In this document: positions 13,473 to 41,552 of the stretch, piece by piece
How positions within the stretch are numbered: the stretch's first letter is position 1
How the letters are laid out: each line of letters begins with the position of its first letter
Assembly (NCBI GenBank): GCA_019510485.1
Contig: JAEKKI010000169.1
Coordinates: 1 to 64,000, forward strand
Length of the DNA: 64,000 nucleotides
DNA from: Catenulisporales bacterium
GTDB lineage: Bacteria; Actinomycetota; Actinomycetes; Streptomycetales; Catenulisporaceae
Direction: 5' to 3'
Notes under the pieces: generated by a model
Told to the model about the DNA's origin: nothing
What the model saw: only the letters and a program-made list of their open reading frames with translations
The model's database searches: none
Translations under genes and position numbers: made by a program

Positions 13473-13485
13473 ATCCGCTACCGCG

Positions 13486-14307
13486 CTATTTCGCCAGCAG
13501 CGCCTCGACCGCCGCGAGCCCGTCCGCGCCCAGATCCCGGGTGAACTCGTTCACGTACAACCCGATGTGCTGCTTCGCCACCCCGGGATCCATCTCCTGC
13601 GCGTGTTCCATCACGTATTCGCGCGACGCCTCCGGATCGGCCCACGCGTACTCCACCGAGGCCCGGATCAGCCCGCTCAGTTCCGCCAGCGCGTCCGCGC
13701 CGAGCGAGCGCCGCGCCACGATCGCGCCCAGCGGGATCGGCAGGCCGGTCTCGGCCTCCCACCACTCGCCGAGGTCGGCATGGCGGGTCAGACCGAAGTT
13801 CTGGTACGTGAACCGGGCCTCGTGGATCACCAGCCCGGCGGCCACCTCGCCGGCGGCGACCGCCGGCATGATCTCGTGGAACGGCAGGACCTTGATGTCC
13901 ATCCCGCCCGGCACGCTCTTCTCGGCCCACAGCTCGAACAGCCGGTAGGCCGTCGACAGCAGGCTCGGCACCGCCACCGTGCCGCCGGCCAGCGCCTCCG
14001 CCGAAACGGCGCCGCGCGACAGCACCAGCGGGCCGCAGCCGCGGCCCAGGGCGCCGCCGCAGTGCAGCAACTCGTAACGGTCCCGCACCAGGGGCAGCGC
14101 CGGATAGGAGATCTTCAGCACGTCCGGCGCGTCCGCCTCCTGGACCCAGTAGTTGGTGACGTCGATGTCGGCGAAGGTGACGTCGAAGGCCGGGGCGCCC
14201 GGCAGCAGGCCGTGGGTCAGCGCGTGGAAGACGAACGTGTCGTTCGGACACGGCGAATAGGCGATGGAGAGCTTGGCGGGCAGGACGGTCGCGAGCGCGT
14301 CAGACAT
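13486..14307 (-). CDS. mqnD: 1,4-dihydroxy-6-naphthoate synthase MqnD
   Basis: Converts cyclic dehypoxanthinyl futalosine to 1,4-dihydroxy-6-naphthoate in the futalosine menaquinone pathway. The 273-residue protein has a periplasmic-binding-protein fold and the MqnD hallmark IAYSPCPNDTFVFHALTHG near the N-terminus (about residues 14-32). ISYPALPLV, VLPFHEIMPAVAAGEVAAGLVIHEARF and the C-terminal HIGLYVNEFTRDLG are also typical. The Pro-Asn-Asp of SPCPND distinguishes MqnD from the related MqnA. The ATG at 14307 follows the mqnB stop by eight bases, so the two genes form an operon transcribed mqnB then mqnD. The longer open frame upstream overlaps mqnB and is rejected. Confidence 0.95.
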   Translation of the reverse strand: MSDALATVLPAKLSIAYSPCPNDTFVFHALTHGLLPGAPAFDVTFADIDVTNYWVQEADAPDVLKISYPALPLVRDRYELLHCGGALGRGCGPLVLSRGAVSAEALAGGTVAVPSLLSTAYRLFELWAEKSVPGGMDIKVLPFHEIMPAVAAGEVAAGLVIHEARFTYQNFGLTRHADLGEWWEAETGLPIPLGAIVARRSLGADALAELSGLIRASVEYAWADPEASREYVMEHAQEMDPGVAKQHIGLYVNEFTRDLGADGLAAVEALLAK

Positions 14308-14315
14308 ACGGCCGA

Positions 14316-14963
14316 TTATCCGACGCCCGGCGCCTGCAGGGCGGCCAGGGTCTGCCCGACCGTGCTCAGCGCCTCCAGCGCCGCGTCGATCCGCCACGCC
14401 TCGCGGTCGCGCGGTCCGACCGCGTTGGAGATCGCGCGGATCTCCACGAACGGCAGCTCCGCCATCGCCGCCGCGGTCGCCACGCCGAAGCCCTCCATGG
14501 CCTCGGCCGCCGCGTCGGGATGGCGCTCCAGCAGCTCCGCCGTCCGCTCGGCGGTGCCGGTGGCCGTGGACACGGTCAACACCGCGCCGTTCACCACGTT
14601 CAGCCCGGCGCCGCTGAGCGCCGCGGTGATGCGTTTACCCCAGCCCTCGTCCGGCTGCTCCACGCGTGGGGCGAAGCCGAGTTCCTCGACCGGGAGGAAT
14701 CCGTCGGGGGAGTCGGCGCCGAGGTCGGCCGCGGCCACCCGAGTGGAGACCACCACCGAGCCGACCGGCGCGCGCGGGGTGAAACCGCCGCCGATCCCGA
14801 CCGACACCGCCAGCTCATAGGGCTCGGTGGCCAGGACCCACGCCGCCCCGGTCGCCGCCGCCGCGGGACCGGCGCCGGTCACTATCACCGTCAGGCCGTG
14901 CGCATGCCGTTGCAGCGCCTCACGCTCGGCCTCGACAGCGGCGGCCAACAAGAATTCGTACAT
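14316..14963 (-). CDS. mqnB: futalosine hydrolase MqnB
   Basis: Removes hypoxanthine from futalosine to give dehypoxanthinyl futalosine. The protein has 215 residues and belongs to the purine nucleoside phosphorylase/MTA nucleosidase fold. VSVGIGGGFTPRAPVGSVVVST binds the nucleoside, and DAAAEAMEGFGVATAAAMAELPFVEIRAISNAVGPRD carries the catalytic Glu-Met-Glu-Gly and Asn-Asp-type region. The ATG at 14963 has GGGGAG seven bases upstream; an in-frame start at 15014 is less likely. It heads a two-gene unit with mqnD. Its presence means this organism uses a futalosine step, which requires a deaminase for aminodeoxyfutalosine (see 45175). Confidence 0.94.
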   Translation of the reverse strand: MYEFLLAAAVEAEREALQRHAHGLTVIVTGAGPAAAATGAAWVLATEPYELAVSVGIGGGFTPRAPVGSVVVSTRVAAADLGADSPDGFLPVEELGFAPRVEQPDEGWGKRITAALSGAGLNVVNGAVLTVSTATGTAERTAELLERHPDAAAEAMEGFGVATAAAMAELPFVEIRAISNAVGPRDREAWRIDAALEALSTVGQTLAALQAPGVG

Positions 14964-36392: not shown

Positions 36393-36516
36393 GGTGACGA
36401 CTATCCGCTGTCCGGGGTCCGAATGGCAACGTGATCTAGGAATCCGAACGATGTTGTGACACCGGGCAGGCGTACGCTGCTGCTGCCGGGTCCACAGCGA
36501 CAGAAGAGGTGAAGGT

Positions 36517-39927: not shown

Positions 39928-40179
39928 TCACTCGACGCGGCCGAAATGAATGATGTGGATGGTGGCGGCTGTGTCGTCGATTTCGTAGACGACGCGGTAC
40001 CAGCCGATCCGGATGCGCCTGACGTCGGACGAGCCGTAGGGGGTCGATCCGTCGGGACGTGGATCCGACAACAGGTAATCGGTTGCGGCGAGGACTTGCT
40101 TCAAGCCCTCAGGGTCGTCGTTGAGGAAGCGGGAGGCTGCGGCGACCGCGTGGGGTTCCCACGTGATGGACCAGCTCAT
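39928..40179 (-). CDS. RelE/ParE-type toxin of a type II toxin-antitoxin system
   Basis: An 83-residue protein of the RelE/ParE fold. ITWEPHAVAAASRFLNDDPEGLKQVLAATDYLLSDPRPDGSTPYGSSDVRRIRIGWYRVVYEID shows the usual helix pair followed by the basic strand RRIRIGWYRVVYEI that in RelE toxins contacts the ribosome or mRNA. It probably cleaves translated mRNA. The ATG overlaps the antitoxin stop by four bases (ATGA), the standard antitoxin-first operon. It lies 19 bases from the mqnA stop. Confidence 0.88.
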   Translation of the reverse strand: MSWSITWEPHAVAAASRFLNDDPEGLKQVLAATDYLLSDPRPDGSTPYGSSDVRRIRIGWYRVVYEIDDTAATIHIIHFGRVE

Positions 40180-40433
40180 TCCGGCGGCAATCCGAGCATG
40201 CGAAGCACCTCGCTGTGCGGAACCGGGCTTTCGGCGGTGCCGTTGGCCTTGCGGACCTTGTATTCCGCGACAGCCAGTGCCTCTTCGAGTTCTGCCAACT
40301 CGGTCGGATTGATCAGTATCGCCGCCGTGTGCCCGTGGTCGGTGATGGCGATCCGTTCGCGGCTGTTCGCAGTGCGGCGGACCAGGCTGCCGAAGTTGGC
40401 CCGAGCCACGGTCATCGGGTAGGCGTCGCTCAT
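40176..40433 (-). CDS. Phd/YefM-type antitoxin
   Basis: An 85-residue antitoxin beginning SDAYPMTVARANFGSLVRRTANSRERIAITDHGHTAAILINPTELAELEEAL, the Phd/YefM DNA-binding N-domain. The C-terminal 30 residues would wrap the toxin. The ATG at 40433 is preferred to an upstream start at 40478 because the family starts here and because a promoter (TTGCAA, 16 bp, TACACT) places transcription at this codon. It lies three bases from the likely mqnC start on the other strand. Confidence 0.88.
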   Translation of the reverse strand: MSDAYPMTVARANFGSLVRRTANSRERIAITDHGHTAAILINPTELAELEEALAVAEYKVRKANGTAESPVPHSEVLRMLGLPPE

Positions 40434-40436
40434 GAT

Positions 40437-41552
40437 GTGAGTGTACTCATCTGGCCACTTCTTGCAACTTCTGTACATAACTGTTCACTACACACCCACC
40501 CGCCCCCCACCCCCGAGATCGCCACCTACATCATCGAGCGGAACATCAACTACACCAACGCGTGCGTCACCGCGTGCAAGTTCTGCGCCTTCTACGCCGC
40601 CCCCAAGTCGGACAAGGTGTGGACCCGCGAGCTGGACGACATCCTGCGGCGCTGCGCGGAGACGGTCACGCTGGGCGGCACGCAGATCATGTTCCAGGGC
40701 GGCCACCACCCCGACTACGGGGTCGAGTACTACGAGAAGAACTTCCGCGCCATCAAGGCCGAGTTCCCGCAGCTGGTCATCCACTCCCTCGGCGCCTCCG
40801 AGGTGCAGCACATGGCCAAGGTCTCGGACGTCTCGGTCGAGGAGGCGATCACCCGCCTGAAGGCCGCGGGCCTGGACTCCTTCGCAGGCGCCGGCGCCGA
40901 ACTGCTTCCGGAGCGCCCGCGCACCGCCATCGCCCCGCTGAAAGAATCCGGCGAGCGCTGGCTGGAGATCATGGAGACCGCGCACGGACTGGGCCTGGAG
41001 AGCACCTCCACGATGCTGATGGGCACCGGCGAGACGAACGCCGAGCGCATCGAGCACCTGCGCATGATCCGCGACGTGCAGGACCGCACCGGCGGCTTCC
41101 GCGCGTTCATCCCGTACACCTACCAGCCGGAGAACAACCACCTCAAGGGCCGTACTCAGGCCACGACGTTCGAGTACCTCCGCCTGATCGCGGTCGCCCG
41201 GCTGTACCTGTACAACGTCGCGCACATCCAGGGCTCCTGGCTCACCGTCGGCAAGGAGGCCGGCCAGCTCTCCCTGCACTACGGCGCCGACGACCTCGGC
41301 TCGGTGATGCTGGAGGAGAACGTCGTCTCCTCCGCCGGCGCCAAGCACCGCTCCAACCGCATGGAGCTGATCCACCTCATCCGCGCCGCCGGCCGCGTCC
41401 CCGCACAGCGCAGCACCACCTATGAGCTCATCACCGTCCACGACGATCCGGCGAACGACCCGGTCGACGACCACGTGATGAGCCACATCGCGTCCACGGC
41501 GATCGAGGGCGGGACGGCGCATCCGGAGTTGAAGCTGGTCGAGGTACGCTGA
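40437..41552 (+). CDS. mqnC: cyclic dehypoxanthinyl futalosine synthase MqnC, N-terminus replaced
   Basis: Radical SAM enzyme that cyclises dehypoxanthinyl futalosine. From IATYIIERNINYTN onward the sequence is a normal MqnC, with the cluster motif ACVTACKFCAF (C43, C47, C50 counting from GTG 40437), MLMGTGETNAERIEHLRMIRDVQDRTGGFRAFIPYTYQPENNHL, and the C-terminal VSHI-type and EGGTAHPELKL ends. Normal MqnC has about 55 to 60 residues before IATYII; here only about 27 unrelated residues (including HPPPTP) can be read from the sole nearby in-frame start, GTG 40437. Upstream is the toxin-antitoxin pair. No ribosome site is visible. The core looks intact, so either a shortened enzyme works or the gene is damaged. 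Confidence 0.8.
   Translation: MSVLIWPLLATSVHNCSLHTHPPPTPEIATYIIERNINYTNACVTACKFCAFYAAPKSDKVWTRELDDILRRCAETVTLGGTQIMFQGGHHPDYGVEYYEKNFRAIKAEFPQLVIHSLGASEVQHMAKVSDVSVEEAITRLKAAGLDSFAGAGAELLPERPRTAIAPLKESGERWLEIMETAHGLGLESTSTMLMGTGETNAERIEHLRMIRDVQDRTGGFRAFIPYTYQPENNHLKGRTQATTFEYLRLIAVARLYLYNVAHIQGSWLTVGKEAGQLSLHYGADDLGSVMLEENVVSSAGAKHRSNRMELIHLIRAAGRVPAQRSTTYELITVHDDPANDPVDDHVMSHIASTAIEGGTAHPELKLVEVR
40438..40467 (-). promoter_or_regulatory. antitoxin promoter with operator palindrome TGAGT-GT-ACTCA
   Basis: On the minus strand TTGCAA (40462-40467) and TACACT (40440-40445) are separated by 16 bp, and the antitoxin ATG lies seven bases on. The 12-bp palindrome TGAGTGTACTCA (40438-40449) covers the -10, the expected place for antitoxin autorepression. 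Confidence 0.6.

Follow-up and report, generated by a model that had tools for sequence, protein, structure and literature searches.

The mqnC gene of an uncultured Catenulispora begins abruptly at codon 60, next to a toxin-antitoxin pair that several congeners carry at the same place, and approximately 1.9 kb found between the pair and this point in the relatives is absent. We consider a real, recent deletion that probably inactivates mqnC to be the best reading of this locus, and we hold it with slightly more confidence than doubt. The window, the stretch of 64,000 nucleotides that was analyzed, belongs to an 82,332-base contig (C274) from a 5.53-Mb genome that is 77% complete and divided into 326 contigs. 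If the deletion is real, this organism may lack the menaquinone cyclization step and depend on its neighbors, which would bear on why such soil actinomycetes resist culture. If the deletion is an artifact, the locus illustrates how a draft assembly with one false join may mimic a gene fusion or an invasion. A resident toxin-antitoxin pair can pass for an invader when its neighboring gene has changed.

The toxin-antitoxin pair and the mqnA-mqnC interval

The upstream neighbor of the pair is an intact mqnA (PF02621; 39018-39908, plus strand), which is syntenic and 85-87% identical in the congeners. A complete toxin gene of the ParE/RelE superfamily (83 aa; 39928-40179) and a Phd/YefM-type antitoxin gene (85 aa; 40176-40433) follow on the minus strand. 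The toxin matched PF05016 with 27.7 bits (cut-off 23), and the antitoxin matched PF02604 (PhdYeFM) with 38.3 bits (cut-off 29.8). With both domains above the curated cut-offs, the antitoxin gene placed first, and 4 bases shared between the two genes, the pair has the arrangement of a type II system. We classify it as a ParE/RelE toxin with a Phd/YefM antitoxin, whose toxicity and neutralization are predicted. The initial annotation had reported a complete pair on the opposite strand, after mqnA and abutting mqnC, and this description held.

The initial annotation also proposed that the pair had been inserted at this site, overwriting the start of mqnC together with its promoter. The only observation in favor of an insertion is the adjacency of the pair and mqnC in the window. 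Against it, orthologous pairs are found in G007 (locus L042), G009 (L040), and G002 (L043), in each case directly after mqnA, antisense to it, and together with an intact mqnC; a toxin remnant is found in G008 (L044). The pair in G007 and G009 is 77% identical to that of the window in the toxin and 82-85% in the antitoxin, a divergence about the same as in the neighboring genes. Across G002, G007, and G009, the antitoxin orthologs at this place are 76-85% identical. The toxin is single-copy in the genome of the window, and the sequence missing from the window lies beyond the pair. Because the pair has the same position and orientation in congeners with an intact mqnC, the comparison identifies it as an ancestral resident of the mqnA-mqnC locus, and the change lies in the neighbor rather than in the pair. 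The same congeners led us to rule out an insertion into mqnC, which we regard as extremely improbable; it would require that the pair had been lost and then regained at precisely this site.

The gene order in the pair-bearing congeners is mqnA, the antisense parE/phd pair, a 4HBT thioesterase gene, a DUF1152 gene, and mqnC. The pairs of these congeners sit approximately 1.9-2.0 kb upstream of the point where mqnC resumes in the window. They agree with the pair of the window in position, orientation, and gene overlap; however, they are followed by the thioesterase gene, the DUF1152 gene, and a complete mqnC, whereas the window proceeds straight to the headless mqnC. Relative to the congeners, the missing piece measures 1.89-1.97 kb and contains the gene for the 4HBT-fold thioesterase (PF03061), the DUF1152 gene (PF06626), the upstream region of mqnC, and mqnC codons 1-59. 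Homology on the left flank extends through the upstream region of the pair (40434-40494), which aligns with the relatives through TTGCAACTTSTGTACA, and into a C-tract; on the right flank it resumes at codon 60. This places the junction at 40514/40515. The thioesterase and DUF1152 genes were not found elsewhere in the readable contigs of at least 3 kb of this 77%-complete genome; as a control, the DUF1152 query recovered its target in eight of nine congeners.

We propose that the ancestral lineage held the same gene order as these congeners. A deletion of approximately 1.9 kb that began at the C-tract ahead of the antitoxin gene and ended with mqnC codon 59 would then have set the old intact pair against a headless mqnC, the arrangement that the comparison reveals. 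Judged by gene content, the mqnA-mqnC interval is unstable in the genus, with repeated gene loss, since the thioesterase gene is gone from the interval in G005 (L036) and most of the DUF1152 gene is gone from G003 (L037), where its 3' end is kept and mqnC is intact. In more distant members of the family (L046 and L047), mqnA and mqnC are almost adjacent.

The toxin and antitoxin of G002 (L043:5201-5700) differ in their similarity to those of the window; the toxin is 49% identical and the antitoxin 76%. This gap suggests that the toxin evolves faster or that the partners were swapped at this locus.

The remaining and the missing parts of mqnC

The mqnC gene is recognizable on the plus strand from E-IATYIIERNINYTN, with the GAG at 40515 as codon 60, and continues to 41552 without a stop or a frameshift. 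Its product retains the radical-SAM CxxxCxxC motif as CVTACKFC, with all three cluster cysteines, and matched both PF04055 and PF19288 (CofH_C). The match to TIGR03699 (MqnC) is a bare pass (430.9 bits against a cut-off of 428.1) and covers only positions 34-342 of the 342 in the model. Over residues 60-404, the protein is 94-97% identical to that of the congeners, whose mqnC is longer by exactly 59 codons. The absence of the normal N-terminus and the usual upstream region, as described in the initial annotation, was thus corroborated. Compared to the cyclic dehypoxanthinyl futalosine synthase MqnC (TIGR03699) of Catenulispora and Streptomyces, the mqnC of the window, whose enzyme activity is predicted, shares the CxxxCxxC motif and an intact C-terminal CofH_C domain but is without residues 1-59, the start codon, and the upstream region.

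The segment LxRAAxGGRIxxEEALxLYRxAPLHxLGxAADxxR, characteristic of the N-terminus in the family, is absent from the MqnC of the window. Its portion YRxAPLHxLGxAADxxR, upstream of ATYIIERNINYTN, was present in all 105 other distinct MqnC N-termini from the loci compared, which represent Catenulispora and related genera as well as Streptomyces, Kitasatospora, and others. Only the window departs from this pattern. Because the segment is kept in 105 of 105 and the window is without it, the missing N-terminus is not due to chance. No relative whose MqnC naturally starts at this position was found among these sequences. In an alignment with 6xi9, a solved aminodeoxyfutalosine synthase, the lost stretch corresponds to N-terminal sequence. 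In a structure prediction for a full-length congener MqnC, the lost residues 1-59 form three helices ahead of the first barrel strand; this prediction (17 sequences, mean pLDDT of 53.6) has low overall confidence and was used only for the N-terminal helices.

The start codon of the antitoxin gene (40431-40433) and the nearest in-frame GTG for the headless mqnC (40437-40439, plus strand) are three bases apart, as previously noted. This GTG had been taken as the only usable start; it is the nearest, not the sole one, as the mqnC frame is open back to 40167 and contains three more GTGs within the antitoxin gene (40335, 40329, and 40215). The leader from the GTG at 40437 reads (M)SVLIWPLLATSVHNCSLHTHPPPTP, followed by E60, and is free of stops. 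A foreign leader does precede the MqnC core, as had been claimed, but the string quoted for it (VHNC...) is only the tail of this leader. None of the in-frame GTGs has a convincing ribosome-binding site; the match at 40437 is weak. No sigma-70-like promoter match was detected on either strand in 40434-40494.

The dN/dS values of the mqnC core are 0.04-0.11 in comparisons with the congeners. Considered as a possible sign of decay, the core has five private amino acid changes, compared to zero to one in the congeners, but the genome of the window (G000) is the deepest branch of the tree, and most of these sites are variable across the wider family. The low dN/dS implies that the loss is recent, that it is not real, or that the short protein works. 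In the last case, a short MqnC would be made from a GTG in the control region of the pair, for example the one at 40437; it would carry approximately 26 foreign residues on the barrel, and mqnC expression would be tied to the divergent promoter region of the pair. The open frame, the intact core, the low dN/dS, the stop-free leader, and the passed TIGR03699 cut-off are all compatible with such a protein. However, the universal conservation of the lost segment and its alignment to 6xi9 speak against it, as do the lack of a promoter match and the weak ribosome-binding site, and the low dN/dS would be just as expected after a recent loss. We consider a short working MqnC very unlikely. It is slightly more improbable still that a headless MqnC is translated inside the toxin-antitoxin control region and works, such that its N-terminal cap would be dispensable and a menaquinone enzyme would be arranged divergently beside a toxin-antitoxin operator.

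Because the promoter match is lacking, the ribosome-binding site is weak, and the universally kept segment is gone, the most probable state of mqnC, as far as sequence can tell, is that of a recent allele with no function or a strongly impaired one. Its product would be without a start, without its own upstream region, and without the three conserved helices predicted at the N-terminus.

The junction and the soundness of the assembly

A G-quadruplex (G4) motif, GGGGGTGGGGGGCGGGTGGG, is located on the minus strand at 40495-40514. Its loops are single bases, and it ends exactly at the junction, where the mqnC homology starts. The 82,332-base contig holds no other motif whose loops stay at or below 2 nt; for motifs with single-base loops, a first-order model of the contig predicts 0.25. 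The relatives have a weaker C-rich tract at this point, which falls below the motif definition. When up to three mismatches are allowed, the genome still has no second copy of the junction sequence, the junction string is unlike mqnC codons 50-59 of any relative, and microhomology of at most a base or two is possible at the junction. The uniqueness of the junction string removes the usual repeat-based misjoin, and a repeat-mediated origin of the join was rejected on these grounds.

A likely route for the deletion would be a break at the short-loop G4 that was healed by illegitimate end joining. The position of the motif fits a break that was repaired by end joining with little microhomology; it also fits trouble in sequencing. 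In E. coli, G4 repeats are prone to deletion through slippage inside the repeat (PMC10530614). As in those assays, a stable short-loop G4 marks the end of the deletion in the window. In contrast, the E. coli events are confined to the repeat and involve no 1.9-kb flanking loss, whereas in the window the flank was lost and the G4 was retained; this difference counts against the deletion.

The principal competing explanation is that the organism has kept the 1.9 kb and that the junction reflects an assembly or strain-mixture artifact, whether a false join, a chimeric molecule, a removed gap, or a minority strain. The assembly is fragmented and incomplete, and short-read assemblies contain fewer G4s and GC-rich tracts than they should (PMC7757076). 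MqnC is expected to be needed, and the mqnC core is under strong purifying selection. A stray 1.9-kb piece may also sit in the contigs under 3 kb, which lie outside the searches. This last point weighs against the deletion as well, as does the fact that the remaining mqnC codons are without decay. On the other side, the unique junction string, unlike the codons of the relatives, makes no overlap-based join apparent, and searches of the rest of the readable assembly recovered no copy of the missing segment, the DUF1152 query having worked in most congeners. None of the 37 readable contig ends that were sampled was at a G4 motif; the assembly is thus not generally broken at G4s, and G4 dropout at contig ends was discarded as an explanation. 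We regard an artifact as a tentative but serious possibility.

The contig is collinear over 82 kb with C. acidiphila (G004) and with G007. We compared 235 conserved open frames, including many overlapping non-coding ones, and found only one real gene, mqnC, that is partly covered in the contig interior. At 13479-13486, the window lacks the proS gene that accompanies mqnD in C. acidiphila and G007; both flanking genes are intact, and a complete proS is found on contig C102 of the same genome. General misassembly was rejected, as the other gene-content gaps in the contig show no clear truncation of a gene and proS is intact on C102. The collinearity of the contig and the restriction of clear truncation to mqnC favor a real deletion, although they fall short of proof. 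The options that the initial annotation listed (a shortened MqnC, another copy, or an incorrect assembly) were the correct set; of these, another mqnC copy found no support in the readable assembly.

Menaquinone synthesis in the genome and the genus

The genome contains mqnA, mqnB, mqnD, and mqnE; mqnB (14352-14948) and mqnD (13489-14271) are present in the window. A search for a second mqnC in the readable part of the 77%-complete assembly returned only MqnE and a CofGH-type gene as other matches, and no match to the lost MqnC N-terminus turned up elsewhere in it. MenD had no match over the cut-off in this 77%-complete genome, and the classical menaquinone route was rejected on this basis. 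Catenulispora is essentially aerobic, and the menaquinones of C. acidiphila are MK-9 (PMC3035231). For an essentially aerobic genus that has menaquinones, fixation of an mqnC null should be costly, which is a further point against the deletion. Were the deletion real, neighbors would have to supply the organism or strain with menaquinone or a late precursor, or the allele may not be fixed in the population.

In G003 (L037:400-1011), mqnE is reduced to an in-frame remnant of approximately 204 aa. Both ends of the gene are kept, while the radical-SAM cluster, along with most of the barrel, is gone; CofH_C is the only domain recognized, and no other MqnE was seen in G003. With it, the genus shows a second lesion of the menaquinone pathway, independent of the first.

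Just upstream of mqnE in the window (36419-36470), a stretch of approximately 49 bases is almost identical to the corresponding region of G003, despite the degradation of mqnE in that congener. The shared stretch hints at a conserved regulatory element.
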